Shown piece after piece: positions 4,098 through 51,100 of a stretch of 64,000 bases of DNA. How positions within the stretch are numbered: the stretch's first letter is position 1; each line of letters begins with the position of its first letter. Below the pieces are notes generated by a model. That model was not told the origin of the DNA. It ran no database searches and saw only the letters and a program-made list of their open reading frames with translations. The DNA comes from Symbiodinium sp. CCMP2592 (taxonomy: Eukaryota > Sar > Dinophyceae > Suessiales > Symbiodiniaceae): positions 310,001-374,000 of the forward strand of contig CAJNDT010005995.1 in assembly GCA_905221615.1 (NCBI GenBank). Reading direction: 5' to 3'. Made by a program: the position numbers and the translations under genes.

Positions 4098-4252
4098 TGA
4101 TGATGATGATGCTGCTGCTGCTGCTGCTGCTGCTGCTACTGCTACTGCTACTGCTACTACTACTACTACTACTACTACTACTGCTACTACTACTTCTACT
4201 ACTACGACTACTACTGCTACTACGACGACGACGACTACTACTACTACTACTA
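4098..4252. repeat. Trinucleotide microsatellite (TGA, TGC, TAC units)
   Basis: Runs of TGA, then TGC/CTGCTG, then TAC with interspersed variants. It lies about 130 bases after the LINE stop codon. The long Leu, Thr and Ala/Val ORFs on both strands here are products of the repeat and are not genes. Confidence 0.95.
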
Positions 4253-8900: not shown

Positions 8901-9422
8901 AAGAACATTATCACGCCGCGCCCACCGTGAGCGCAAAGAACTTGAGGAACCCCAGGCCAATCAGAAGTCCCAAAATGCCCACTGTGGGACATGAATGGGA
9001 CACGGCATGAGCGGCAGTGCACCCACAGAAAACACGACGTATTGCCCGCTAACTCGGGTCTGCGACGATGGCCAAGCAGGTCCAAAACCCTGAACTCTAC
9101 CGCGGACCACTGCGAAAACGGGCCAGCACCCACAGGCAATCAATCAATCAACCAACGTAATACAGCAGGAACATCGGAGCCACGAATTCCCGAAATATCA
9201 GCGTGTGTTGCTGTCAACAAAGACAGGTGTTAACATCGCAACGGGGGTACTACTAGTACTCGTACGAGTACTAGTATTAGCTAATACCAGTCGTGGTATT
9301 GGTACAAGTACCGGTACTAGTATAAGTATTATGATGACGATGATGTTAGTACTACTACTACTACTACTGCTACTGCTACTGCTACTGCTACTACGACTAC
9401 TACGACTACTACGACTACTACG

Positions 9423-9471
<49 letters not shown>

Positions 9472-9661
9472 ACTTCCACTTCCACCTCCGCCTCCACCTC
9501 CGCCTCCACCTCCACCTCCACTTCTAGTTCCACTTGCACTTCCACTTCCACGTCGACTTCTACTTCTACATCTACTTCCTACTTCTACTGCTATTGCTAC
9601 TGCCACTGCTGCTGCTGCTGCTGCTGCTGCTGCTACTGCTACTGAGTAGCTGCTACTGCTC

Positions 9662-9697
<36 letters not shown>

Positions 9698-21199: not shown

Positions 21200-22180
21200 T
21201 GAGAATCGGTGAGAAACAACTCGCTGGCCATGCGTTCCGACGGCCGTTCTCGCGAAGCGTCTCACTCAAACTGCAACTGGTGATCCCAAAATTGAGTTGC
21301 CCAACGTCTTAAAGCCTTCTCGGAGCCCTCCGACACCCCATAAGTGATGATTGGTCACCACTCGGCATGACAGAAGTTCAATATCAGAATCTGTCATCTG
21401 CCCGAAGAGACGGAATAGACGGACCAGAAGGATCGCGGAGTCTTGCGGAGGGCGGGGAGAGTGCACACTTCCTGAGCAAACTCTGATGACATGCCGTTTG
21501 CATTAGAGCAGCGGGTCAGCATCTGCATTGTTTTCAGAAGTGAGTCAGGTCAGTGGTCGGCGAGACCTGGCCGTCGAGGCCGCTTGGCCATCCCTAGCTG
21601 CACAAGCGATCCTTGGGCTGTGAGGGGTGTCCTGGGTCGTCTTCGAGCTGCTTTCGAGCTGAAGGCCACCATTGCTACACATTTCTGCTGCCAGGTTGAA
21701 GTCTCTTGATGTCTGTGCCAGGGCTGAGTGGCTAGGGTCGCCTGTTAACCAAATCAGCTTGCTCAAAGTGGCTCCAAACGCCGGCGACGAAGACGGTCAA
21801 TGTAGGACAGTGCCCTTAGAGGTTTAGTCAGGTTTGGTTTTGTGCAGATCTCCGTGTGAAGCTTCTCGGGTTTGCAGCACCACATTTCATTGGCAACTTC
21901 TGTCTTAAATCGCAGCATTCTGACCAGATCAGACCAAGCCAAGCCTGAGGCTTGACCAACATACAGAGACACACGGACATAGAGATAGCGACGTAGAGAC
22001 ACACCAACACAGACACGGAGGCACAGAGACCAAGAGACACAGAGACAGATAGAGGTGTTGCTTGTCGTCCTGCAACCGCTACCCAAAACGAGGTCATGAA
22101 TCCCATATTGTGTGTATCGTTTCTGAAGCAAATGTCTGTGGGTGACACGGTGCTGGATCAGGGTTGCGGTGTGGTGTGTG
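21200..22180. other. Intergenic; no gene recognised
   Basis: No exon-like sequence seen. The stretch 21970-22060 is rich in GAGACACA words (imperfect dinucleotide/tetranucleotide repeat), and 22170-22192 is a TG run that marks the left edge of the next mobile element. Confidence 0.5.
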
Positions 22181-22515
22181 TGTGTGTGTGTGTAAGCCTC
22201 GATTCTAAGCTAGAGGTGTCTGGACAGTCGTGCAATTTCAATATGCAGGGGGCCCGGAGAGCCCGAGTGAGGTCCGGGCCAACGAAGACCCTCACTCGGT
22301 GCTCGTGTAAACGTACCTGCCATCGAGATGGCCACCAGGCTAAGCCACAAACCTGGCATGTCGAAAGCTGTTTGAGACAGTTCATGTACGGTTGCTGCAA
22401 TCTGATCAGGCAGGTCTTACTCAGGCTTTAGATGATCATCGACTACACCAACAGATTATCATTATTATTACATTTTGGCGATTCTGTCCTGATGGACTCC
22501 CAAACTCCGTGTGTG
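22181..22515. repeat. Left terminal direct repeat
   Basis: Starts and ends in TG-rich words. Identical to the right copy at 29981-30318 except for T versus G in the word CTTACTCAGG/CTTACGCAGG and one missing ATT unit. Contains no recognisable hammerhead ribozyme core on either strand. Confidence 0.95.
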
Positions 22516-22863
22516 GCCTTGTTGCCAACGGCAACAACCGCTCCTGCGGACTGCCAGGGTACGTTGTGCGGCCCAAGATGGTAACACAACAGGCCGTACT
22601 CCTTCGGGACAGGTCAATGGTGCAACGGCACTATAAAGAGTGGCCCTTTCTTGTCAGGTGATGGGTCTAAGTGCTCCTAGTGAGCAAACGGAACAATGGT
22701 GCCCCGATTGGTCAGGTGATGGGCTTGTGTGACCTAAACGGTCTCTGAGTGGCTCTAGTAGCCTTGAGTGAACCAAGAAGCAACAGTTACCGAAGATGAG
22801 TGGTTATGGCAGCATCTCGGCTTCATTTCACTTGTTTCGTGTGTTTGCAGCCCTTTTTGCACC

Positions 22864-24339
22864 ATGAACATGGATTCCTTGCCTGATGCAGATGTTACCG
22901 GGATTGATATCTCGGAGGGTGAAGGACCCTCGCCATCGGAGATTCCGATGCCCAATTTTGGGTTTCAGGGAATCGAGATTGACAATGTTCTGCCGGATCG
23001 ACTCTCTACAGGACAGGACATTCCGATGGGAGATTCTTCTTCTGAGTCTCGAGATGATACTTCAGAAGTGGTCTCGGACAGTGATCGATCGATTGCACCC
23101 CCACAGCAGACACCTCAACTCACCTCGCGAGGAGTTGCCCGTGCAAAGAATGCTGCTAAAGTTCCTAAGGGATCAGTGGGACAAGTTTTGCAACAGAGGA
23201 GGGAACAGATGCTGGGAGCACTTGAAGTGTGTAAACCTTCAGAAGACAGCATTTTGTCGGCTGCCGAGTCTTCTGCTTCTGACAGGGAGATACAGGTTCA
23301 ACAGGACCTGGCGGATCGTGCTGTTGAGATGGCGACTTTGCGCAGTCCTTCTGCAGGAAGAGAAGTCAAGGACAAAAAGTCAGCAGCACCATCGACGGCA
23401 GCACCACCACCCCCTCCTCCACCACCTCCACCTCCACCGGTGATTCCTACAGGAAATGCAAGTGCTGTTGAGTGTACACCGATGCAACCTCCGCAGTATG
23501 CAGGTGATCCCTTGCTTACAACTAGTGGTCAGGACGTGCATTCTGAACTGGTATTGTCGAGGACAGTGGGAGGAGCAGTCAGTGTCAAGCTTAAGAGCTG
23601 GCAAGGTCGCCTCATCATGCAAGGAGCGCCTGAGGACCAGATTGAGCGCAACATGAAGATCGTAGCAGATCTTTGCAATGAATCAGGGATTCAGCTTCTG
23701 CCTCTCTTTGAACTTCGGTGCTTTGCAACGCTGATGTGTCGATACACCGGAGATACATCTCGCATGTTCTGTCGAGTGAAGTGTCATGAGTCCAAGGCAC
23801 ATGTTTACTGGAGTTTTGATCTGAACGAACGTTTTGTTCCACATGATGATTCTTCTGCAGAAGAACGAACTCTATATTATTTTGCTCATGGCTCGGACAT
23901 GGCAGGTGTGCAAGGGATAATGCAATCCCGGTTTTTGGCACCAGCCACAATGGCGGACGGCCCGGAGGCTGTAGGCCATTATTCGCAGGCAACACCGTGG
24001 AGCGATGACATGTCGTTTGTGCAGATTCTTGATAGGGTCGCGAATACTGCAAAATGGGCCTGTCCCATTATTACACATGGGTATGCGAGTGTTCCGGGCC
24101 AGCATTTCGTTCTGAAGTCGGGCGGCGGAGAGGACGCCCAGCAACAGTGCCTCATACATGGGGTCGTTCACTTCAAACGAGACCATAAATATGTGATCCA
24201 CAGCGGAAGGACCACGGTGGCAGGTTTCACAGTGGCAGTAGCCAAACAGTTCACTCCTTTGAGAGATGCTTTCGGTCGCCCGCTTTTTCGGGTTCCTCTG
24301 ACACATGCTCAGCAGATCCAGCGTGGTGCAGGCAACTGA
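22864..24339 (+). CDS. Element ORF A: Pro-rich N-terminus, possible ADP-ribosyltransferase-like C-terminus
   Basis: The frame is open from 22768, but the ATG at 22864 (CACCATGA context, just after a TTGCAG acceptor) is the likely start, giving 491 residues. Residues 1-170 are Ser/Asp/Glu-rich and disordered; a run of twelve prolines follows near residue 185. From about residue 220 the protein looks folded: G-A-V-S-V-K-L-K-S-W-Q-G, then L-Y-Y-F-A-H-G-S-D-M-A-G-V-Q-G-I-M near residue 340-356, and H-S-G-R-T-T-V-A-G-F near the end. The H-G followed by an I/L-rich helix recalls the NAD-binding H-G of ADP-ribosyltransferases; this is a weak, motif-level guess. It is the first ORF inside the left repeat. 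Confidence 0.7.
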   Translation: MNMDSLPDADVTGIDISEGEGPSPSEIPMPNFGFQGIEIDNVLPDRLSTGQDIPMGDSSSESRDDTSEVVSDSDRSIAPPQQTPQLTSRGVARAKNAAKVPKGSVGQVLQQRREQMLGALEVCKPSEDSILSAAESSASDREIQVQQDLADRAVEMATLRSPSAGREVKDKKSAAPSTAAPPPPPPPPPPPPVIPTGNASAVECTPMQPPQYAGDPLLTTSGQDVHSELVLSRTVGGAVSVKLKSWQGRLIMQGAPEDQIERNMKIVADLCNESGIQLLPLFELRCFATLMCRYTGDTSRMFCRVKCHESKAHVYWSFDLNERFVPHDDSSAEERTLYYFAHGSDMAGVQGIMQSRFLAPATMADGPEAVGHYSQATPWSDDMSFVQILDRVANTAKWACPIITHGYASVPGQHFVLKSGGGEDAQQQCLIHGVVHFKRDHKYVIHSGRTTVAGFTVAVAKQFTPLRDAFGRPLFRVPLTHAQQIQRGAGN

Positions 24340-24430
24340 CGTCGTCTCGCAGAGGACCAAGAAAATAAACCAGGACCTGCAGTAGTGGCATGCTTCGTTT
24401 GCAGGATGCAGGACCGCTTGCAGTCAGTTC

Positions 24431-24712
24431 ATGTCAACATGTGTCTTTGCACAGCTTTTGATCTTTCAAGTTTGCTGCCAGAGTACTTCAGCCATGTCAT
24501 ATCGTCGCCGTGATTCACGATCTCGAAGCCCACCCCGCTCGCACCGCAGACGTCCTGAATTCTCTTCTTCGGGTCGCACTACTCGGCATAGATCTCGCAC
24601 TCGCTCTCCCAGAGTTGAACCACGAAGTGCAAACCTCCCGGGTCGTGGCGGTCAACATCGCAGGAGTGGGACTCGAATAAGGTGTATGGTTTGTCGTTGC
24701 CGAGACGAGTGA
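24431..24712 (+). CDS. Element ORF B: RS-domain (SR-protein-like) peptide
   Basis: Possible ATGs at 24431 and 24494. From 24494 the product is dominated by Arg-Ser and Arg-Arg pairs (S-Y-R-R-R-D-S-R-S-R-S-P-P-R-S) for about 60 residues. RS domains in host proteins bind splicing factors and RNA and are phosphorylated by SR kinases. The frame closes at 24710, but a GTGTATG...TTGCAG stretch at 24682-24748 could be an intron joining the RS part to the next ORF. The phases only match if the donor is one base earlier (GG), so the join is unproven. Confidence 0.55.
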   Translation: MSTCVFAQLLIFQVCCQSTSAMSYRRRDSRSRSPPRSHRRRPEFSSSGRTTRHRSRTRSPRVEPRSANLPGRGGQHRRSGTRIRCMVCRCRDE

Positions 24713-24750
24713 CTTCCAATCGACTTACTCGAGAAAACGGCATTGCAGGT

Positions 24751-25668
24751 ATGGAGATCTTTGAAGTGCCTTTGCATCGAGTGGTTTCGGGGGGTACTTC
24801 TAATTGGGCTTTGCGGCAGATTGCTCATGGTCGTACTGTGCACTGGGAGAATTTTCGGTCGAAACAAGAGGGTGTGTTTGCTGGGGTGCTCATGCGGGCA
24901 CTTCGATCGGAGCAAGCAGAGCAGGAGGTCACCGATTTTGTTACCATTCTGAATGCTACTCAGAAGAAGTTGTTTCCAGATTCGGAGCTTCATGATTGGC
25001 CAGCTCGCTTCAAGACCATCCAGAAGCTAGCCGAGGACCTGGTGAAGGACTTTCGTAAGCATGCACCAGTCCAGACCAATCAGACTTTGTTGCAGCGACT
25101 TCATGCTCTTGAGACTGAGAATGCACGTTTGAAGGGTAAGCAGTCTCGTTCCTCCCAGCCAGCTCTTCCTCGTCGCAGAGGAACACCTGCCTCCAAATCT
25201 AAGCGGACAGCACCGGAGAGCCCCAACCCCGATTTCGAAGACGAGGACCTTGAAGCCGTTGGTGATGGTGAAGCAACCACCAAGTTCAGATCGCCTGCCG
25301 AAGATCCCTTTGAAGAGGGAGAAACGGACAAGGACCAAGGCCCAATCGATGCTCGGGATACATACTCGCAGTATCTTCCGAATCGCGAGAGCACTCTTTA
25401 TCTAGAGAACTGCAGCTTGGAAGGCCATAACATCAAGAGTGTCAACAACTGGCTAGCATCTACTGCTCTCGGGAAGGGCAAGAACAAAGTGATTGACACT
25501 GCAGTTTCCGAGTTCATTGCTGCTTGTGCAAAACTTGATGATGGTAGCAGGAAGCCAGTTGACAAAATCGCAGTGGAATGGGGTCTCTCAGTTTCTTTAG
25601 CTTCTAAGCTGAATGAGAAGTGCCTCACTCGCTTGATCGCGGGAGCTCACGTGCTGGCTAACCAGTGA
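24751..25668 (+). CDS. Element ORF C: coiled-coil and acidic protein, unrecognised
   Basis: Start chosen at the ATG at 24751 just after a TTGCAG acceptor; the frame is open from 24682. About 305 residues. Residues 1-110 are helical with L-L-Q-R-L-H-A-L-E-T-E-N-A-R-L-K-G forming a leucine-zipper-like coil; the middle (about 130-215) is basic then strongly acidic and disordered; the C-terminal 90 residues look folded (N-W-L-A-S-T-A-L-G, D-K-I-A-V-E-W-G-L-S). A role as an RNA-binding or Gag-like structural protein is possible from position only. Confidence 0.65.
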   Translation: MEIFEVPLHRVVSGGTSNWALRQIAHGRTVHWENFRSKQEGVFAGVLMRALRSEQAEQEVTDFVTILNATQKKLFPDSELHDWPARFKTIQKLAEDLVKDFRKHAPVQTNQTLLQRLHALETENARLKGKQSRSSQPALPRRRGTPASKSKRTAPESPNPDFEDEDLEAVGDGEATTKFRSPAEDPFEEGETDKDQGPIDARDTYSQYLPNRESTLYLENCSLEGHNIKSVNNWLASTALGKGKNKVIDTAVSEFIAACAKLDDGSRKPVDKIAVEWGLSVSLASKLNEKCLTRLIAGAHVLANQ

Positions 25669-25789
25669 CTATGACTATGTGCGACTTCGAGCGCGACAAG
25701 GACCAAGCGACAGCGATTTGTTGTCACTTTTCTCCGATGGTTTTCATTGATTCTCCCAATCATCTACTTCGTCTTGCCCCACAGGATGG

Positions 25790-26341
25790 TTGACAGATTC
25801 ATGTGGGTTCGTTCCCACATTTTTTCCGTGTGCTCTATTTTCGAACGCTTTACCTCGGTTTTCTACAGGCATTTTCGCTCGCATTCGTGATCTTCTGATG
25901 CAGTTCCGTGTACCCCAACATTATCCATGGACCTGGCATCAAACTTCACACATGGTGTATCTTCGTGTGTCGGTGAACCGACCAGCCACCACGGCTCTAC
26001 TGTATGTTGGAGCAACCAGGACAACCGTCTCGGGACGAGAAGCCTCAAGACGACGGAAGTTCATTCAGTTGGCCAGGAAAAGATTATCCCATTTCAAACC
26101 CGCACTCAAAGTGTTTCATCGTAAACGTGATTTCTATCAAGGTATCGTTTCGGCCCTGCGCCAGGACTCTGACCCTTTGTCTTTGCTTGCAACGGAAGCT
26201 GCCTTGATTCGGACCATCAAACCAGCTTTGAATTATCCATGGGTTCAGGACCTTCTGAAGTCACTGCGTATCAAGCAGAACAGATTTCGCCTGCCTCAGG
26301 CCAGAACAGGACATCGGTTTACCAGAAGTGTCAGGCTCTGA
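25790..26341 (+). CDS. GIY-YIG endonuclease domain of the element
   Basis: Cuts target DNA to prime reverse transcription in Penelope-like elements. The domain shows M-V-Y-L as the first strand (in place of G-I-Y), A-L-L-Y-V-G-A-T as the Y-I-G strand (25994-26017), the conserved Arg in G-R-E-A-S-R-R-R-K, the catalytic Glu in A-T-E-A-A-L-I-R (Glu codon 26195-26197), and the late Asn in P-A-L-N-Y-P. A TTTCTACAG acceptor at about 25868 may mark the true exon start. The frame overlaps the next ORF by 100 bases and precedes RT, so the order is endonuclease first. Confidence 0.75.
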   Translation: MTDSCGFVPTFFPCALFSNALPRFSTGIFARIRDLLMQFRVPQHYPWTWHQTSHMVYLRVSVNRPATTALLYVGATRTTVSGREASRRRKFIQLARKRLSHFKPALKVFHRKRDFYQGIVSALRQDSDPLSLLATEAALIRTIKPALNYPWVQDLLKSLRIKQNRFRLPQARTGHRFTRSVRL

Positions 26342-27150
26342 TTCGACGTCGTCATGGAGTTTATCATCAGCATTTTTTGAGCAACAAACAAGTGTTTCTC
26401 TCTCTCTATCGCTTGGGAAGTGACAGCTTGGAGAAGTTCCTGGAATCCAGGCGACTTCGTTCTCATTGCACACCTCTGCAGGAGCTGTATCTTCGATGCA
26501 GGTTAGTCAACATGATCGACGAGCCGTTCAAAACCCGAGCTGTGCAGCAACTGCGGTTGATCGTGGAATTTAGGAAAGGACATATGCCACCCACCAATGT
26601 GCCCCTTCGTCTTCCACCTCTTGCGCATGATCTTGATCAGGAAGTATGCAGGATGCTTCGTGAGATTGTACAACAAGAGCGAATAAATTTCCCGCCTTTT
26701 CACTTACCGTCATGCAAGATGATTGAGATCAAATCTCGTCCATGGTCCAAGACTGTGTTCAATTATCGATCTTTTCTTCGATCCTGGCAACCAGGGAAAC
26801 CGGAGCCCTGCAGGTGCACGAGATACACGAGCTCATCGGGGACAGGACATCTGTTTGCTCATGTACGAGTGATTCTTCCGGACTCCCCGTTGACTCTCTT
26901 GAATCTCAATGACACATGTTACTTGCCTACAGCACAATGGAAGAGAATTGCGAACAGGGAGGTGTACCGCTGGTGCAAAAGGTGGAGACTACCTCCTCGT
27001 GTTCATTCAGGACTGCGGCAGTGGGTTGAGTGTCAATGTCAACTACATGAACAGACTGTATGTCATGACAAGTCTTCAGTCCATACAATGCCATACAACA
27101 GTTCGTCGAGATCTTCGACACATGCAAGGACTCGTTTTCACTCCAGCTGA
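26239..27150 (+). CDS. Penelope-like polyprotein: linker between endonuclease and RT
   Basis: Continues in frame 1 from the endonuclease (frame 2) and overlaps the RT ORF (frame 2). Probable coding part is about 26300-27060. It contains helical sequence (F-L-S-L-Y-R-L-G-S-D-S-L-E-K-F-L) and a C-R-C motif followed by G-T-G-H-L-F-A-H-V-R, the type of Cys/His pair found between domains of Penelope-like proteins. Frame changes at both ends need either small introns, frameshifting, or mutations. Confidence 0.6.
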   Translation: MGSGPSEVTAYQAEQISPASGQNRTSVYQKCQALIRRRHGVYHQHFLSNKQVFLSLYRLGSDSLEKFLESRRLRSHCTPLQELYLRCRLVNMIDEPFKTRAVQQLRLIVEFRKGHMPPTNVPLRLPPLAHDLDQEVCRMLREIVQQERINFPPFHLPSCKMIEIKSRPWSKTVFNYRSFLRSWQPGKPEPCRCTRYTSSSGTGHLFAHVRVILPDSPLTLLNLNDTCYLPTAQWKRIANREVYRWCKRWRLPPRVHSGLRQWVECQCQLHEQTVCHDKSSVHTMPYNSSSRSSTHARTRFHSS

Positions 27151-28350
27151 TCATTTTCCATACTCCCTGCATGTTGCTTGTCCTTTTGCTTTTCATTCGT
27201 TATTGGACACTACTTTTCTGGGTGAGTCAGTTTTTCAGAGATGCAGTGTGGGGTGTTCGTCCATTCTGTCGAACCTGAAGATGAGATTTCAATCCACTTC
27301 ACGGTGGTCACAAAGGTACGGATGGGGATGTCGATGGACAGCATCTCTTCCTGTAGCAAGAATTTTGCCCAAACCCAACAAGGACTTTCGGAAAGCACGT
27401 CCGATTATTGCATGTGATCACTGTTGGCATTCCCGCCTGACGACTTTCTTGGCCAAGGCGATTTTTCAGATCATGTTGGTGGCTTTTCCAGCAGGATCCA
27501 CCTTTAATGTGTTGTCGGTTCAGCAAGCAGTTCGCATGATGTGGCATTCTATGATGGGCTATTCTGCAGACGAACCCACCATCATGAAGCAACAGGACCT
27601 CATCGGCTTCTTCAATTCAGTACCACATGATCGCATTTTGCACTCTTTGCTCTTTGCTTTACAGCTACTTGCAGGTCATGGGCACAAACCATGGCAATCG
27701 CAATCCTTGCAGGTTTCTGTTCGCAGCAAGGATCCCAACTTTCGCATCTTTCGTGGACGCCGTAGGTTTGCTGCGAGGAATACCAAGACAATTTATCTGG
27801 AGGACCTACCTGATTTGGTCACGTTCTTGTTACGATCAAGCTTCTTTCAGTGCGGCTTTCATACGTTCAGGCAGATTCAAGGAGCCAGCATGGGATCGGC
27901 ACTTGCACCGGTACTGTGTACACTGGTTGCTTCGACCATTGAATTTCTGTGGCTTCGGAATTTTCGCGTCATTCTGAACAACATTGGTTTTCAGACAGCT
28001 GCTCGCTACGCAGACAATCGTGTCTTTCATGTTCATGCTGGCATTCAAAGAAACCCGTGGCTTCAGCTGCTGTTTCATCTTGAATTTTACGGGGTACCCA
28101 TTATCCTGGAGGACGTGCCGACTGAGAATTTCCTAGGAACTACATGTTCTGTTACACAAGGCACCATCACGGTGGTGCAACCGACCGATGCTTCGACCAT
28201 TCGCACATTGCGGTCAGTCGGTAGGAGGGAGCATGTTCTTTCTGGTTTCTCGGCCAGGGTTCGCACTATCATCAGACTTTCACGACCAATGCGTTTGATT
28301 CGGCCACAGGTGGAGGACTTAATTGAAATCTACCGGGCCCAAGGGAAGCA

Positions 28351-28408
<58 letters not shown>

Positions 28409-28444
28409 CAGATCGTTGAGAGTGCATATTCAACCGGTTTATAG
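26909..28444 (+). CDS. Penelope-like reverse transcriptase
   Basis: Synthesises the element's cDNA. Motifs in order: L-V-F-T-P-A-D-H (RT1-like, about 27130), A-R-I-L-P-K-P-N-K-D-F-R-K-A-R-P-I-I-A (RT2, about 27355-27410), Q-D-L-I-G-F-F-N-S-V-P (motif A, Asp codon 27596-27598), I-Q-G-A-S-M-G-S-A-L-A-P-V (motif B, about 27867-27915) and R-Y-A-D-N-R-V-F (motif C, 28004-28027). In motif C the first Asp is present (28013-28015) but the second catalytic Asp is Asn. Coding before about 27060 is doubtful. The end of the frame runs into a TC microsatellite, and a different frame (to 28643) may supply the true C-terminus. Confidence 0.82.
28351..28404. repeat. (TC)n microsatellite
   Basis: About 54 bases of TC dinucleotide immediately followed by TTGTGCAG. 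It is translated as a Ser-Leu run in the RT frame. The arrangement looks like an expanded polypyrimidine tract ahead of a 3' splice site. Confidence 0.95.
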
Positions 28445-28643
28445 GATCAAAGAATTGACAGGACGTCGCCCTCAATTGCAGTGCTTTCAATTGCATCAAA
28501 ACGGGAGACACTTCTCTTTTCTGGAGCCTATCACGGCATTGGCCACCTTGGATGTAGTGCAATTTGTGAGGACCGCCCCAGACTACAGGGATTCCGAGGA
28601 TGTACAGAACCACCCGACCCGGTGGAACCCACAGGTATGGTAA
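28412..28643 (+). CDS. Possible C-terminal exon of the RT polyprotein
   Basis: After the TC tract and CAG, the frame ending at 28643 reads R-V-H-I-Q-P-V-Y-R-I-K-E-L-T-G-R-R-P and F-L-E-P-I-T-A-L-A-T-L-D-V-V-Q-F, a protein-like sequence of about 75 residues. It is out of frame with the RT by one base. It may be joined by splicing; no donor with matching phase was found. Confidence 0.4.
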
Positions 28644-28776
28644 CGAGATTCACTCTTTCGTGACAAAAAGGACAGGACTTGCAGCCGGCTTTGATTTGGT
28701 CTGCATTCACATTCTTTTGTGTGTTCTGAGTTTTGCTCATAAGGGGTAGTTGGTCCTTTCCTTTGCTGAGTGTATC

Positions 28777-29433
28777 ATGTCGGACTGGGAAGTTGATTCG
28801 ATGGACTTTGATTCGGCACTCTTCGACCATGAGGACTCTCGTTTGGCCGATCATGACTCAGTAGTTCGCGACCACGAGGAACCCCATTCGGATGTTGAGG
28901 GCAGTTCTGTCAGCTTCCATTTCCCGGAGCTCTACAACGAGGACTCTCAGTCTGAAGTTGTGTGCAGCTCTGTCAGCTTCGATGTCAGCGATGTCAGCCT
29001 CGGTATCAGCGAGCAACACTCGGCTTCGACACACACCTTCGACAACCTCGCAACCAGCACTGTTCATCCCAGTACTGAGAGGGCCACTGAGTCGAAAGGT
29101 GGCTCTGAACAGGTTTCGTACAATCCTTCAACGAACCTTTCATCAGGACAACTTTCTGTAGAGAAGCCGCCTAAAAGACGACTTAGGATGATGGATGAGG
29201 ACAAGGACGGTGTCCGCATCAAGATCTTGCCCTCTCCCAAAAAACAGTTTAGGGAGAGAATGGAGGCCACTCGACTACTCGGTGATGATTTCTACATTCC
29301 GAATCGAGCGCAGTTGATCTTAAACTTCTTGAAGAAACAGGGTACTCGATTGACTAAAGAGAAGCCAGGACCGACCATCAAATTTTCAAGTACATTAGAA
29401 CTTGTTCAACATGTACTCAAGCGTCAGTCATGA
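28777..29433 (+). CDS. Element ORF D: acidic protein, unrecognised
   Basis: ATG at 28777 (M-S-D-W-E-V-D-S) chosen as the first in an open frame; 218 residues. Residues 1-90 are Asp/Glu/Ser-rich with an imperfect internal repeat built on E-D-S-x-S-E-V and S-S-V-S-F. The C-terminal half is basic and better structured (R-R-L-R-M-M-D-E-D-K-D-G-V-R-I-K-I-L-P, then R-A-Q-L-I-L-N-F-L-K-K-Q-G). Lies 330 bases after the RT. No family recognised. Confidence 0.6.
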   Translation: MSDWEVDSMDFDSALFDHEDSRLADHDSVVRDHEEPHSDVEGSSVSFHFPELYNEDSQSEVVCSSVSFDVSDVSLGISEQHSASTHTFDNLATSTVHPSTERATESKGGSEQVSYNPSTNLSSGQLSVEKPPKRRLRMMDEDKDGVRIKILPSPKKQFRERMEATRLLGDDFYIPNRAQLILNFLKKQGTRLTKEKPGPTIKFSSTLELVQHVLKRQS

Positions 29434-29475
29434 GTTCGGTGCATACACAGCAACAAAATACCTTGAGGACCGCGG

Positions 29476-29847
29476 ATGCATGTTTGGTTGCCTATTGCAG
29501 GAATTGAGACATTGATGAAGCCAGGACTCACTGTTGTTGTTCTTGACATGCAGCAGGTTCGAAGTTGTGTCTTCATAGGTCAGGTAGCCATGGACAGTCA
29601 AATGATGAGAGACACTCAGTGGCGCGTTGATCAAGCATCCACCGCTCAACTGCTTGAGCTGCTCTGGCAGATCTGGGACCGACTTACTCGCAGATTCCGG
29701 TTTCAGGATGGACCCATTCGCTGTCGACATCGGTGTCAACACTGCGAGAATCGGTGCTGCTTTCATAGTCACAACAATACTCAGGAGCAGCGACATGAGT
29801 GGTACGGACCACACTACTGTTTCTTGCATGATGAAGATGGATATTGA
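29476..29847 (+). CDS. Element ORF E: small protein with Cys/His cluster
   Basis: 123 residues from the ATG at 29476. The N-terminal part is amphipathic (T-A-Q-L-L-E-L-L-W-Q-I-W-D-R-L). The C-terminal 40 residues carry R-C-R-H-R-C-Q-H-C-E-N-R-C-C-F-H-S-H, then H-E-W and H-Y-C, enough ligands for one or two zinc ions. It ends about 130 bases before the right repeat. A nucleic-acid-binding role is a guess from the metal-ligand pattern. Confidence 0.5.
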   Translation: MHVWLPIAGIETLMKPGLTVVVLDMQQVRSCVFIGQVAMDSQMMRDTQWRVDQASTAQLLELLWQIWDRLTRRFRFQDGPIRCRHRCQHCENRCCFHSHNNTQEQRHEWYGPHYCFLHDEDGY

Positions 29848-29980
29848 CATTTGTGAGGAGTAGTTTCCGACAGGACGACCTGTTGCGAGTTTTTGAAAAG
29901 AGACACTGATTGATGCGATTGGACACAGGACTCAGGACGGGGAGTTGTTACTGCGCTGTTTTCTCCCCTCATTGAGGGGT

Positions 29981-30318
29981 GTGTGTGTGTAAGCCTCGAT
30001 TCTAAGCTAGAGGTGTCTGGACAGTCGTGCAATTTCAATATGCAGGGGGCCCGGAGAGCCCGAGTGAGGTCCGGGCCAACGAAGACCCTCACTCGGTGCT
30101 CGTGTAAACGTACCTGCCATCGAGATGGCCACCAGGCTAAGCCACAAACCTGGCATGTCGAAAGCTGTTTGAGACAGTTCATGTACGGTTGCTGCAATCT
30201 GATCAGGCAGGTCTTACGCAGGCTTTAGATGATCATCGACTACACCAACAGATTATCATTATTATTATTACATTTTGGCGATTCTGTCCTGATGGACTCC
30301 CAAACTCCGTGTGTGTGT
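29981..30318. repeat. Right terminal direct repeat
   Basis: Near-identical copy of 22181-22515 in the same orientation. Flanks differ from those of the left copy on both sides, so the two mark the ends of one unit. Confidence 0.95.
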
Positions 30319-31880
30319 GTGGTGTGCTGCCGCAGGAAGTGGTGGAGAACAAGTAGCTGATTCAGTGATTGGTTGTTGGCTGTGCTGGGTGGGGTTGATG
30401 CCACGGGGCCGTGGGTTTGCAGGGTGCAGCGGAATTGCGCTGCCATGGGGTTGCAAACTTCTTTCTGGGGATGGAGGGTTCCGAGCCAAACTGGACTCAA
30501 GGTTCAATCGATATCTTGCACCATTTACGTGTTTTCCAGGTTGTTTTTCTTGGGTCCCATTGCCCCAGGTACGCCACTGCACGTCTGCAGTGGTGTCACG
30601 ATAGAAATGCAGCTACTTCGCTGAGTGGTGAATGCATCCAGCACGCCTTGCTTTTTATGAAAAGGGAAGTGAAAGCTTCACTCGGTTACTCTTTGTGACA
30701 CGGTTGGACACACGCACAGACACAGATACATAAAGACATACCAGGGCGCGCACACACGAATACCAGTGGTTGTGAAATATGAAGGCTTTCGCCGCCACTA
30801 GTTCCATGATGTCAACACCTTAGTACTCATGGGAACTCCTTAGGACTCGTCAGAACACCTGCGTCAGCTCAATAACGAATGTTTCCAGGTCCTCGGCTTA
30901 GCCTGGTTGCTATACGATGGAAAAAGCAGGTACGTTCTCAGGACGTACCCCAAGAATATCAGCATGTGCAAAGGCCCTCAACGTTGGGCTGGCGACCAAG
31001 GCACATGTCCAGCCCCCCTGCCTACTTCAAATTCCAAAACCCATTAGCCTAGAATCAAGGCGTGTGCGCACACACACATGTAGATTCCGATCAATGCCGG
31101 TCTTGTCTCCATTTTGATTGATCTTGGCTTCTTCCTTCGTATCTGCTCCAATTGATGACTGTGAAGAAGGGTTCCTGAAACCCGACAAGATAAATAGGAT
31201 GTAGCTGCATTTACAACAAGGAATCTGAGGCTGATGGACTCAAAAGGCTCGTCTCTAGGCAATCCGCAGTGAAACACTGCAGGTATGTGTGGTTCCGGCG
31301 TCCCAGAACCATATCAGCACACTCAGAAGAGCACTGCTCTTAAATCACAACTGGAAGGACTCATTAAATCAATGTAGCACGCAATTCCCTTAGAAACAGG
31401 ACTTCCGCACACACACACACACATGCATGCAAACGGAGAGACAACGAGACACGCAGACTCAGATAGATTGTGTGTTGTGTAACATCGGGCTTTGAAGCTG
31501 ACAGTTTTGCCTTTTCTCGGGAGGCTGTCTGTGTGCTGACCAGGTCTCGTAGATGGGCTACGTCCCAAGCCCTTCTCCGCTGCACGAGAGATGTCGAAGC
31601 CCGTCTTCCCAGTTATTGCGCACTTTCTGGAGATGCGAAGAGGTGCGAAGAGGTGCTTTTCAGATCCCGTCAGGTCGGATTGTGTCGAAGCAAGAGCCGA
31701 TGCTGCGCACGGCAAGTAACTTACGTCAACAGAAATCTTGAACGAAGGGAGCTTGTGCATTGTGCAAAGTACGATTGCAAAATACCATCACAGTTTTTTG
31801 TTCCAAAAGATTGTGGTACTTGTCGTTCTCAAACTTTATTTGCAGGGCCAGCCTGTTTTTCAAGGTGTCTCGCTCGGCCT
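30319..31880. other. Intergenic; no gene recognised
   Basis: Contains short CA/TG runs (31410-31424) and scattered open frames under 150 codons without family features. Confidence 0.4.
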
Positions 31881-36760: not shown

Positions 36761-39700
36761 GTGTAACCCGCCAGCCACACCAAACTTCAAGACGAGCACC
36801 ATGAAGACAAGGAGACAACCGCCCCAAAAAGAAGACTTCTCTTGGAGGGTAGCCATCCTTGTAGTGGCCGCACCGAATTTCCGGTAGGGTTCTCACAAGG
36901 TATCCAAGGAGGCGCAAGATCAGCACACATATCCGAACTCCTCCAAGCAAAAAGAACGCCTAAAAAGCTGGCTCTGGCATGCCATTGGGTCCGAGCATCT
37001 CCGAGCTAAAAGGGGCAAAAGGCATATGAAGCAGAGATAGACGCATTTTTGCTTTTCTTTGGAGGTCTTGCAAGACGGATGGAGGAGGATGCCGTAGGCT
37101 TCTGGTTCCGATTGGCCCCTCGGAAGCAGTCCCGTCCCAAGCACACCCCAAGCAATCTGGACAGAGGCCTGGGCTCTCTGGCGACGGCTGCGCCCCAGTC
37201 CAAGAAGCTCTCTCTACCACGCTTGCACCTGCCGCGTGCCATCGCCTGCCGCCTGCAGCTCCTCAGGACTGGAACGAATGATGGCTGAGGAGAAGCCTGC
37301 ACAGCATAGCGCATCGAGTTGCAGCTTTGAGAAGTGCTTTCTACTGCGTCTGCACATCGTCTGCACGCCGACATGGCTCTGCATTCTAAAGGAGTGCGAT
37401 ATCGTTGGCAGACTTCTGGTGGAGTTGCAGGTGATGTCGGTAAATTTGGTATTATATACACGGCATAGAAAGCAGAGCAGTCGCAGAGCCAGGAACGCTG
37501 GGCCCAGCACGAAAGGCTTCGAGAGGCGCAGGACTGCGACAGTTGAGCCGACTTGTCGGTGGCATCCCGAGAATCGGAGGAGCGAGCTGATCAAGAGGCT
37601 TTCGGCCCCGGGGGGCGGGGCGAAAAACGTTGCCGTTGCCGCTGCCCAGAGGTATGCTCTCGTCTGGAGCTGCCATGGCCTCAGGATCAGCTGTGGAGTC
37701 TATAGACGCCATCCAGCCGCCAGCCGCTGGAGCCGGCTAGGATGCGCTACCCCTAGGGTGTGGGGTTGTTAGATTGTAAAATGACTCCTCGCCTGCTGAG
37801 ATTACCTCCTGGAGTACCCAACCCCACAGACTATGGTGAGAATACCGTGAGAATCCCTGGAGTGCCCAAGCCCACAGACTACCGTGAGAATCCCGGGAGT
37901 GCGCAACCCCACAGACTACCGTGAGAATCCCTGGAGTGCCCAAGCCCACAGCCTTTTGCGTGTAGGGAGGACAAGGCGCTAGGGTGGGGATGTTCGAAGT
38001 AAACTAGTCTTTTTTGATGGCCCTCGAGGCTAGCACTCTCTTTGGGGCGGGGGCGGCGGCACTAAGGGTTCTTGCCCGATGAGCACCCCCTTTCCCCCGT
38101 TCCTTGTGCTAGGGCGACGGTGCCCTCTAGTATTCTGGCTTAACTGTTGTTGCAACTGATCCGACGATGGCGACGTCTCCACCCATCATGGGCCTGAGGA
38201 CACCCAGTGTAGAGGTGAGGTATTCCATGCTCATAACATGCATTAGCCGCTCGCTGGATTGCTGCCTTTGTTATCGGCTTTGTTCCAGAGCTGCGCCTCT
38301 GTACTGTTCGATGCCGCGGGGGTGTGTATGATTAGTTACTGTACCTGACTGGTGGCGAGCTCGCCCTCGGTGCTGGAACAGTGTTCCCTCGGCACATGGC
38401 ACGGGCCTTTGGGTCGCCTTGTGTGCATTAAACATCGCTCCCTCGGCACTGGCCGCACGGTTCGCCCTCTTGCAACTCTTTGTGTCTGCCGGTTACTTGG
38501 TGTGTTCTTTGGCGCATCCAAGCATAAGTATTATCGGTTGGTGACGTGTGGCTTGGCCTCGTGCCCAAGGGCTATGCCTCCCAGATTCTTGGGCTAGAAA
38601 CATGTATCTTAGTATTCTACACCGTGACCTGTCTGCACTGGCTAGTTTTTCCCCCCACTTGAACTCTGGGACGGAGGGGGGCGATGACGCGTGCGGAGCC
38701 CCCCTGGGGTGTTGAGAGGGACGTGGGAGGTAGGCCGCACGGTAAGTGCTGGTCGACAGTCACTCACTCTTTTGTAGATGGTTTCCAGGCATATTGAGGC
38801 TGTGGTAGACCGAGCTACACTAGCAGCCCATGCCAAGGGGCCAGGAGGGCATCCGACAAGTTCTCGCTGGGTGCCAAGACGACTCAAGACTGTTCTTGGA
38901 CGCTTGGAGTCGAGATGTCTTGAGATGACGAGACGGGGACGGATATGAGACGGGCAGAGTCTTGCACAGCAGCTCATTGGCCCGGCAGGCCAGCAGCGGG
39001 ACACGGTTGCCAGGCTCCATCGGCGTGCCGTGCCGTTTCGCATTGCATCTGCGCACGGAAGATGTATGCGCATGGCTCAAAGGGATAGGGGAGAGAATGA
39101 AATTCCAGGGTACGACCTGCAGTCTCATGCGCCGAGTCTGAGCAGCCTATCTCTAACGAGGGCTGCAGTGAGCCGCGATAAGCCGGTGTTTAACCAATGA
39201 ATGCGGGGAAGTGCCGCCAGCCATGGCTCTGCAAAGAGTGCAAGAGGCTGTCAATTCTCGTTGGATCTTCTCGCCACATGTGAGAATGGCGCAGGTCTGA
39301 GAGGTCGCCGGGATCGCCTGCGTTGCTTCTCCAGCTTCTGCCATTTGTGCACTTTTCTCAGCGCGCACGCTCTGACAAGCGCTCAGAAAGTCAGAAGCCA
39401 AGTTTGATTTTTTGCATGTTACAATGGGTTGTGGACGATGTTGACTCATGTGGACGCTTCGTTTTTTTTGGCTGAGGCGCCGCTGGCATGCATCGTCCGA
39501 ATCGGCACTTCAAGCGACGAGCTGCACGCGTTTGCAGCTTCAGCCCGGACGTGGGGAGTTTCTCGGCTGCAAAGTGTGGAGCAGCGTTACATAGCCAAGC
39601 GATCTCTGCCCCAAGGGAAGCGCGTAGGCACCACAAAGGGCTGATCCGAAACAGCCGCGCATCAGTTGGTGCCTTCCTAATCTGAACACTTGGCAAGGAG

Positions 39701-48149: not shown

Positions 48150-51100
48150 TTTTGCGAGACCACCCTGCGCCTGACCTTCATCTTCCAGCGCCAGCACTAC
48201 GAGTGCCTAGAACCGGGCCCGCCTGAGTCGGCTTTCCAGTCGGACGAGACGAAATTCGGACTGCCAGGCGAGAGCGGCACGGATCCCGACGAGGAGGCGA
48301 TTTGCGGGTGTTCGGCGTTCTTTGGGAATGTGAAGACATCGCAATGGCCATTCCAATCTTGAGTGCTCTGAAGCACGTCGGCCTAACACCGAAGCTGCTC
48401 CCACGATCACTCCGATGTCAATTCGCAGCGCTGCAAGATCCCGTCGCGAAAACGGAGACCAGTGTTACAGTAGGTTACAGGGGGTTAGGGGGGAAATCTT
48501 GGGCATCAGTCGGTCCGCAGCATTCATTGCATAGATTGTCATGAGTCATGATGTGTAGCAAGACAATGGATGGTTTTCCGAGTCACTTGGGCTTACGAGA
48601 CGGCGTGTCGATCGGTCCTCTTCCCGGCCAAGTCGTCAACTGTTAGCCGGCCGCGAGTTTTTTAGTGCGACCTTCCCTTCGACTTGCGCTTCCAGAGCTG
48701 TTTTCGTTGCTAGCTTGTGCCTTCCTCACATCGTTTTGTTGCAGGTCGGAGAGGTTCGGTTGACGCCATGTCCGGTCTCGGAGCCACTCTCCAAGTACCT
48801 GCAGGCCGGCGCCATCCTGCGCCCTGAGACTCACGAAATTAGCTTATCGAGTGCTTTGAGGCGACGGGCGTAGGCAATGATGATGCTGAGCACCTGAAGA
48901 GTCGCTTTGGCGATAACCTGCTGGAGGTCCGTAACAGCGTGATATCACCAATTGTGTTGTCTCTTGCTTGGGTTCCGTGCGGCCGTGCAGGTGGAGCTCC
49001 CGAGCTTTTTCCAGTGCTACAAGGCTCCCGATGGCTCCCGGTGGGTGAGGCTACTGACTCTTCTGCTCGAAATCTGTCGGGAGCCAGGAGCAGCTTTTAT
49101 CGCCTTTAGTCATCTTCCAGGCGCAGAGAAAGCACATGTCAGCACATCCCTCTTCCTCTTTGCTTTGCTTTGTTATTGCTCTTTGCCCGATGACCCAGAT
49201 CTTTGTGGCCCTTATCTGGGCAGCTGACGATTTCTTTGGCTACACCTTGATGCAGTTGTTGCCCAAGGCTCAGCTATTGGGAGGCAGTGGACATGATCAA
49301 CAGGGAGTGCTGGATGCTGTGTTGGCCGAAGGAAACAACCCTCTCGCAATTGGAAGCTCAGAAAGTCCGAACAGTTGAGTAGTTTCGTTATGTTTCGTTC
49401 TCTGTGTTGAAAACGAGTCGTGCAGGCGGATGAAGTCCTAAAGGAATCGTGCTTCATGACATGCTGCATGCAGCGAACGCAGGAAGCATCATGGCACCAT
49501 GGCGCTGCCGCAAGCGTGTGCCTGTTGGACCTAGGTTCATTTTGACGATGGAGTCCACAAGCGTTTTCCAGCGGCTGAAGACGATGAAGATGCTCAACAG
49601 CATGGGCACGAAATCCTACGGCATCATGGTAAGCCCTGACCAAATCCTAAGTGTGTGGTGGATCCAGTGAAGTGTCGACAGCCAGGTCTTCCGAGGGGGA
49701 TCTTGGGTCGAGAAGAGCCGGGGCCTCGGGCTGGGGCTGCCCTACAAAGACTTCCGTCACACTGGAACTGAAAGCACATGGGCCGGGCTTTGAGGTCAAG
49801 TGCGAGCGAGCTGTTTTATTCGTAACGATCGTAAGGCAGTCTTTGGGCAGGTAGCTTTGTGAGAAATTGCAATGTACCCCCTCGTCTAGGCCCGTGGCGA
49901 TACTCCAACCCGAGCCGTCACAACTTCCGAGTCTTGTGTTCAACATCTGAGTCCTAGCCTCAACCATCTTTGTATGTACGTAAGTACGTACGTAGGTACG
50001 TACGTAGGTATGTATGCATATATATATATGTATGTATATATGTATGTGTGTGTAGAGTTTCGTTTTTCGGTCCTTGCCTGGATCCGTCGCATGACTAGAT
50101 TGCAGATTGCAGCTCATTGCAGCTCGACTATTCAACCAGTCAGTCGAGAAAATGCCAACTGCCACAAGGATTTTACGTGCCTGAGGCACACAGATGCTTC
50201 GGCAGTCTGCTACAGTCTGCTCTGAAACTCTGCTTGTTGATCTTGCATGTGTAGCCTTGGTCTTGAGCTTATCTTGTTACATACCGCTGCCATAGGGCCC
50301 TTGAGTCATACCGCTAGCTTCGCAGTTGCAAAAGGGAACGTCCACCAGTTTGAAATCGGTACCGGAGCTGGTACACCAGCCAAGCGGGGACTACTGTAGT
50401 ACCTAGCCACTAGTAGGTCAGTGGGGCGAGGGTAGCGGATTATCGACCCATTCCGTTGTGTAGCTCTCCCTTTTCATTTTTCATTGTTCCGATCAACAAT
50501 GAGTGTGGCCGGACTCAAGTGCCACCGTGCCAACACCCCGAAAACCCGAAGTGTCCCCTAGATGACGGGGGCGATCCCAGTACATCTCACGACTGGGAGC
50601 TTACGAAATGCGGCGTAAGCTACTCGAGGACGCGATTCGTGCTAAATCGATGACGAAGAGCGACAAGTCAGCTGTCGACCCGGACGAATCAGGTTCCGAT
50701 GCAAATGTCGAGACAGCCAGCCCAGCCCGACCAGAGCAGCAGCCGCACCTTCCGAGGATTACCGCCGCGGCACATAGAGTCGCATAGAGTTTTCGAAGGA
50801 CTTCGCGAGGAAGCCTTTGAGCTGGCACGAGATATCGGTATCGAATCACTCGCGGCCCCCGCAGGGCACTTCGTTCCCTCCTTGGCAAAATGTGCGTAGG
50901 GCGGTGTTTCCACTTGCAGCGGAAGAAGCCCGATAACTCTTCCGATCCGAGCCGATGCGTGTTGAGTTGCTACTTGACTTGTCTGGGCTATCCCGCCAGT
51001 AAGCCCTTGAGATCAAGGGTTGCGCCCCAAACAAGAAGTCAAGCAGTGAAAGCTTGTACAAACTGTACAATGGTAGGGGCGAAAGCCTTGATGTATCATA

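Follow-up and report, generated by a model that had tools for sequence, protein, structure and literature searches.

A Penelope-like retroelement of Symbiodinium with several open reading frames, and a candidate pseudoknot RNA core shared by its terminal repeats and short non-coding elements

Among mobile elements, Penelope-like elements (PLEs) stand closest to telomerase, and we know of little work on how their enzymes choose an RNA. PLEs with an N-terminal endonuclease (EN) have an insertion in the fingers domain of the reverse transcriptase (RT); among them, Chlamys is told from Naiad by an EN without the CCHH motif and by its position in the RT tree. Both groups, of which Craig et al. wrote in 2021, are said to carry a GIY-YIG domain before the RT, a CxC motif and pseudo-long terminal repeats (pseudo-LTRs, pLTRs), to insert into microsatellites and to lack the hammerhead ribozyme. 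The stretch of DNA analysed here, 64,000 nucleotides of Symbiodinium sp. CCMP2592 (the window), holds at 22179-30316 a full-length, frame-damaged copy of a PLE of this N-terminal-endonuclease kind with multiple open reading frames (ORFs). With a probability of roughly 70%, it is a multi-ORF PLE whose pseudoknot core is a recognition key for the EN-RT protein, exploited in trans by non-coding elements.

In excerpts of a 2025 report (PMC12477816), Chlamys-group PLEs are described from the brown alga Ectocarpus, with the statement that the supergroup to which the alveolates belong had yielded none until then. Terminons, according to the available sections of PMC6431247, are giant PLEs of bdelloid rotifers that have many accessory ORFs, are EN-deficient and telomere-attached, and contain hammerheads. 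Retrozymes, as portrayed in parts of PMC7761336 and PMC7229834, are short non-coding elements whose direct repeats contain a structured RNA, the hammerhead. Poseidon of Anolis (PAc), as excerpted from PMC11167929, is bounded by pLTRs and encodes an RT with a GIY-YIG EN, and its protein recognises a segment of the element's own RNA.

The two pLTRs of the Symbiodinium element are 98.8% identical over 337 columns. The near-identical direct repeats of about 335 bp around same-strand ORFs that had been noticed in the original prediction are thus present, and the reading frames between them are real. The rest of the 64-kb window gave zero further matches to the element (blastn E 1e-3). Directly outside both repeats lies GTGTGGTGTG, which neither strand of the window has at any other place; the pair is probably a target-site duplication of 10 bp, the target being rich in TG. 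The original prediction had proposed to look for such a feature. The TG-richness of both repeat ends leaves the limits of duplication and element ambiguous by a few bases; the refined bounds follow from the flanking GTGTGGTGTG. A chance origin of the repeats is ruled out by their identity together with the matching flanking 10-mer. Within the pLTR (window 22440-22515), the nine bases CATTTTGGC are also those of a part of the dinoflagellate spliced leader, which may be chance. The boundary features are as follows.
22169-22178, no strand: left copy of the probable 10-bp target-site duplication GTGTGGTGTG, which has only its two junction occurrences in the window
22182-22515, + strand: left pLTR, from comparison with the right copy
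29965-29979, + strand: terminal hairpin CCCCTC-ATT-GAGGGG, found by eye, abutting the TG start of the right pLTR
29979-30315, + strand: right pLTR, from the direct-repeat comparison
30317-30326, no strand: right copy of the probable target-site duplication, a match to GTGTGGTGTG

Both repeats contain a 76-nt core laid out as GCAGGG, S1 (8 nt), S2, S1', AACGAAG, S2' and a final ACCTGC, which is the topology of an H-type pseudoknot. The linker pattern of the core occurs in the window in the two repeats only, where none is expected by chance.
22245-22320, + strand: left copy of the core, shared with non-coding elements, its helices also paired in two diverged versions
Parts of the left copy, + strand, by pairing: GCAGGG; S1, 22251-22258 with 22273-22280; S2, 22263-22272 with 22290-22299; linker AACGAAGAC, 22281-22289; CCTGC, 22316-22320
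30042-30117, + strand: right copy of the core, the second exact match to the linker pattern (30078-30114)

Two further versions of the core, with changed S1 and S2 sequences, occur in the genome: one (V2) on the minus strand at L009:146-220, about 1 kb from a family A element and not assigned to a repeat, and one within the element at locus L019. All three versions pair S1 at 8 of 8 positions, G-U being allowed, and S2 runs uninterrupted for 10, 14 and 11 pairs. In 20,000 shuffles of each version, S1 was complete in 6, 46 and 11, S2 reached at least 10 in 106, 102 and 131, and the two occurred together in 0. In the three comparisons between versions, 3, 5 and 5 of the 8 S1 pairs are altered on both sides, with the single strands AACGAAG and ACCTGC unvarying throughout. 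A scan of 331,720 fetched bases (some overlapping) for AACGAAG after a complementary 8-mer found, beyond cores of the window type, only the two other versions, at three places; all three have GCAGGG before and S2' after, neither of which the scan demanded. The core can form an H-type pseudoknot in three sequence versions.

Some observations weigh against this fold. A folding program that does not admit pseudoknots favours S2 together with the outer stem of GCAGG and CCTGC, at -35.6 kcal/mol (z -2.5), an energy matched or bettered in 3 of 200 shuffles. S1 and S2 may be incompatible in space at full length, and therefore might alternate. The outer stem is invariant across the three versions, and three versions are few.

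Searches for a described counterpart of the core were negative. None of its versions matched an Rfam 15 family up to E 1, a scan of the whole 8-kb element gave five weak matches up to E 5, none of them to a known ribozyme family, and a hammerhead was found neither at the Rfam gathering level in the window nor up to E 5 in the element. A known ribozyme is ruled out by these scans as the identity of the core. The core pattern had no match in IMG/VR, and pattern scans of IMG/VR and GTDB contigs, from which the window's own genome was possibly left out, gave no relatives of the element.

Within the genome, the core is widespread. The left pLTR was used as query against the assembly (1,098,105,373 bases in 5,383 contigs, the window being C5133:310001-374000) and returned at least 42 matches, from 40 of 113 candidates scored. 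Among the matches listed, the two window copies alone are full-length, four come from one repeat pair at C4701 (locus L019), and the other 36 cover just the core, about 76 nt long and at 22245-22320 in the window, with 96-100% identity. No second full-length element is among these matches to a query that was a repeat and not a protein. Twenty regions were fetched from the match list with pairs preferred, so that the counts are not an unbiased rate: the core is present twice in 16 and once within the fetched stretch in three, and L019 is without the window version.

Fifteen short elements were compared and grouped by all-against-all matches listed (best 90) and by end motifs. Family A has six members (L009, L013, L015, L016, L017, L021) and family B, with subfamilies, eight (L010, L011, L012, L014, L018, L020, L022, L023). 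These 14 elements, 0.96-2.8 kb in size, have the core alone in common with the 8-kb element (76 nt, or 81 in L023) and otherwise nothing at blastn E 0.01; the element's proteins had no match in them by tblastn at E 0.001, and they are classed as non-coding. The original prediction had named, as a finding that would tell against it, repeats recurring elsewhere as an unrelated family; this holds for the 76-nt core, which recurs in non-coding elements, and not for their repeats as a whole, which otherwise differ. The remaining short element, L019, is a 1.66-kb deletion derivative with pLTR flanks 83-95% identical to those of the window element and with its core replaced, which shows block-wise movement of the core. 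The family B element L018 (G000:C204:215800-219000) has five repeat starts and probably consists of partial units arrayed head to tail, an arrangement known from PLEs.

The repeats of the short elements start with TGTGTGTG and end with GTGTG, and a hairpin abuts the right repeat upstream. A script found a 10-bp hairpin in 7 of the 15, five of them with CTACTCCCCA/TGGGGAGTAG and two with CTACTCCTCA/TGAGGAGTAG, one pair being changed on both sides; it returned shorter or different helices in the other eight. By eye, family A shows AGCCC/GGGCT; L019 and the 8-kb element both show CCCCTC/GAGGGG. For the insertion setting, (TG)4 was sought in 30-base flanks of 16 elements, most of them non-coding and the 8-kb element included, with both ends matched in 15 (L012 unmatched); the count omits the element's own TG run, as measured at the inner repeat. 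Of these 15 elements, 10 contain (TG)4 in the left flank and 11 in the right flank, and 14 have it on one side or both, against a window background of 20 in 9,139 30-mers. The 8-kb element is among those flanked by TG, and L019 has TG on neither side. The non-coding elements thus lie mostly in TG microsatellites.

The coding part of the 8-kb element lies on one strand between the pLTRs, as follows.
22870-24339, + strand: ORF1, 489 aa, with an acidic and Ser-rich N-terminus, polyproline and a conserved C-terminal domain of unassigned fold; eight relatives
24494-24712, + strand: RS-rich ORF, 72 aa, which may be an N-terminal portion of ORF3; reading frame only
24682-25668, + strand: ORF3, a 328-codon frame of uncertain start with a charged, conserved C-terminal part; blastp matches P0007, P0034, P0035 and P0039
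about 25771-28345, perhaps beyond, + strand: EN-RT gene with N-terminal GIY-YIG, CxC (CRC) and an RT with YADN at motif C, from match and fold of its relative P0001
28354-28404, + strand: (TC)25.5, a microsatellite close to where the RT frame ends
28777-29433, + strand: ORF4, 218 aa, with an acidic N-terminus and a conserved basic C-terminal domain (LRMxDEDxDGVRIKI...); four relatives
29476 (alternative start 29515)-29847, + strand: ORF5, 123 aa, with a Cys/His-rich C-terminus; reading frame only

The intact relative P0001 (881 aa) aligns to four successive pieces of the window at 74-84% identity with three frame changes, the first piece being of 19 residues only. EN and RT are thus one gene, broken into pieces in the window copy; the GIY-YIG domain and the downstream RT of the original prediction are both present, and their separateness is not upheld. 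The structure model of P0001 matched telomerase first, with I-TevI matching its N-terminus, and the modelled enzyme is accordingly a GIY-YIG-CxC-RT protein with a telomerase-like RT. Such an RT with an N-terminal GIY-YIG domain points to an N-terminal-endonuclease PLE, so that this earlier assignment, together with that of the pLTRs, agrees with both the model and the direct repeats. That the endonuclease comes first is right for the protein and not for the element, in which ORF1 and ORF3 precede it. The RT relatives with named organisms (P0007, P0034, P0035) are from Symbiodinium. The CxC motif, CRC in the window frame, was matched in 15 of 40 RT relatives and unmatched in 25, many of which are fragments; P0002 and P0011 span the place without the motif. 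Motif C (window region 27900-28030) ends in DN, not DD, in 23 of the 40 relatives, where matched (YADN 19, YVDN 3, HADN 1). Motifs A and B are 92-95 residues apart in all six RTs measured, a spacing that may bear on the fingers insertion. By eye, the EN region of P0001 has no Cys. Upstream of the first EN-RT ATG (window 25668-25790) the frame resembles the N-terminus of P0010 (50% over 40 residues, 25726-25845), and translation may really begin, or a splice site be located, farther upstream than that ATG. Sequence searches of the PDB with RT and ORF1 profiles gave nothing useful, an NCBIfam search gave chance-level matches only, and no integrase, protease or RNase H is among the Pfam matches listed. 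Neither 200 kb of contig C5162 nor the other fetched loci contain a second copy of EN-RT or of an ORF.

ORF1, ORF3 and ORF4 are, by their relatives, conserved families. ORF1 has eight relatives at 42-71% identity (7,996 candidates scored); its structure model is poor (pLDDT 38) and uninformative. ORF4 has four, at 46-65% identity over 40-70% of the query (160 candidates), and is a conserved family so far placed beside an RT in the window element only. ORF3 was recognised inside RT matches: when 52 retrieved proteins were compared, its blastp matches P0007 (77%), P0034, P0035 and P0039 each also bore an RT, and ORF1 matched within the RT-bearing P0008 (34 residues), P0037 (84) and P0039 (115). 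Of 40 gene models with a related RT, 6 thus have ORF1 and/or ORF3 joined to it; as gene predictions fusing neighbouring frames, these are evidence of adjacency and not of a fused protein. P0039, with an RT part of only 43% identity, has the order ORF1, ORF3, RT of the window. The longest contig listed is of 193,514 bases for P0046 (ORF1) and for P0009 (RT) alike, a coincidence that suggests a single contig. The earlier claim that accessory ORFs belong to the element is in this way substantiated for ORF1 and ORF3, and a local cluster of unrelated ORFs is rejected for these two, the same ORFs adjoining the same RT elsewhere. The earlier count of at least five extra ORFs stands for ORF1, ORF3 and ORF4, which have relatives; ORF5 and the RS-rich ORF are reading frames only and unsupported as element genes. 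The RS-rich ORF overlaps ORF3 and may form with it one broken or spliced gene. Pfam gave no match for ORF1, the RS-rich ORF or ORF3 and weak matches below curated cut-offs for ORF4 and ORF5. A spliced-leader acceptor before each ORF start was considered and rejected: the pyrimidine scores of 7-12 are ordinary among all window ATGs, 19% of which reach 10, and the EN-RT start alone, at 12, ranks within the top 2.3%.

The recognition-key explanation combines computed parts (the anatomy, the telomerase-like RT with N-terminal GIY-YIG, ORF1, ORF3 and ORF4, the probable target duplication, the paired helices, and the common and swapped cores) with a proposed cycle. The element would be transcribed from pLTR to pLTR, and ORF1 and ORF3 could be RNA-packaging or host-interface proteins. 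The EN would nick (TG/CA)n microsatellites, the 3' end of the RNA, a terminal hairpin followed by UGUGUG, would pair with the nicked CA strand, and the RT would copy from there by target-primed reverse transcription. The EN-RT protein would select its own RNA by the pseudoknot, and the non-coding elements of 0.96-2.8 kb, with TG ends, a hairpin in the same place and the same key, would be copied in trans. That two unrelated non-coding families have the identical core of the 8-kb element, all else being different, is expected if those families are copied by, and matched to, this enzyme. L019, of the same family with a different key, would answer to another autonomous lineage, the key being a swappable cassette. 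Telomerase RNA, the RNA partner of the sister enzyme, has a pseudoknot, which a key of this kind would parallel. At about even odds, the core of this telomerase-related retroelement would be a pseudoknot RNA of a new class, a lock and key (or a new self-cleaving ribozyme replacing the hammerhead), with non-coding elements capturing the 76-nt key for copying in trans and autonomous lineages escaping by changing both helices while the fold is kept.

The main rival, which we regard as unlikely, is that the core is a new self-cleaving ribozyme that, from both pLTRs, cuts the transcript into unit-length RNA, much as hammerheads would in retrozymes and maybe in canonical PLEs. Its place inside each direct repeat is that of hammerheads in the pLTRs of PLEs (PMC11167929, in part) and in retrozyme repeats (excerpts of PMC7761336 and PMC7229834), and the pseudoknot topology, the unvarying AACGAAG and ACCTGC and the presence of the core in short non-coding elements would all suit a ribozyme. 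The negative Rfam scans speak against it, however, and a protein-binding RNA would look alike. Somewhat less probable again is that the 76 bp act as DNA, either as a mobile or recombinogenic cassette or as a hairpin-forming EN site, spread by gene conversion. An identical core in unrelated repeats and a replaced core in related ones do indicate block movement, and DNA strands of this sort can also form hairpins; yet the core has a single orientation relative to the element in the elements read, and its linker is kept as strictly as the outer stem while the helices change, which suits RNA or protein contacts.

Two further alternatives concern the element as a whole. The pLTRs of a one-ORF PLE could have trapped the extra ORFs by chance, these being host genes or other elements; terminal repeats of PLEs can carry other DNA (PMC6431247, as excerpted). 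ORF5 and the RS-rich ORF, without demonstrated relatives, and ORF4, beside an RT in the window only, would fit such an origin, but the joined gene models, the conserved order in the diverged P0039, the contig figure shared by P0046 and P0009, and the tight array of all ORFs on one strand make it improbable. The long direct repeats would also suit an LTR retrotransposon or another class of RT element; a telomerase-like RT with GIY-YIG, and Pfam matches listing no integrase, protease or RNase H, leave this reading with hardly any probability.

Other repeats of the window lie outside the element. A second direct-repeat pair, 50231-50354 and 52243-52367, is 85.6% identical over 125 bases. Long trinucleotide and hexanucleotide arrays (TGC, CTA, TACTAC, ACTTCC, ACTGCT) occupy 4110-4252 and 9350-9697, and a 37-base unit is repeated in about three tandem copies at 37839-37951.

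With a telomerase-related RT between pseudo-LTR direct repeats, the element has the features of a PLE, and with its N-terminal GIY-YIG, CxC, microsatellite bias and want of a hammerhead it appears by sequence to belong with the N-terminal EN+ PLEs of the Chlamys/Naiad kind, here in a Symbiodinium host. It resembles that group in its GIY-YIG before the RT, CxC, pLTRs, insertion into microsatellites and lack of a hammerhead, and differs in its 8-kb length, at least three conserved accessory proteins, the pseudoknot core of the pLTR and the DN of motif C, in 23 of 40 relatives where matched; a further difference is the host, probably an alveolate. Among the matches listed in open-licence literature there was no dinoflagellate PLE, no such accessory set and no such RNA core, although Craig et al. 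(2021) may include a dinoflagellate member.

With Terminons, as excerpted, the element shares the build of a PLE with several accessory ORFs; its RT gene has an EN, however, and among the accessory types named there only the putative structural ORF could correspond. Like PAc in the available text, it has pLTR bounds and an RT with a GIY-YIG EN, and the PAc protein recognises its own RNA, whereas the EN of PAc is C-terminal, its target AT-rich, and its hammerhead overlaps the ORF start. The short elements with the window core are like retrozymes, as far as the excerpts describe these, in being short and non-coding and in having a structured RNA motif within their direct repeats. They differ in that no hammerhead was found (core versions and 8-kb element scanned), in a different kind of pseudoknot, in the TG microsatellite setting and in a PLE with the same motif in the same genome; they may at most work like retrozymes and are not classed as such. 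The multi-ORF anatomy would extend PLEs to dinoflagellates. The RNA core, which the original prediction had not noticed, is judged the more novel part: its fold in three versions and its identity in non-coding elements make RNA choice by PLEs testable on a 76-nt RNA, and it would be a pseudoknot RNA linked to a telomerase-like RT outside telomerase.

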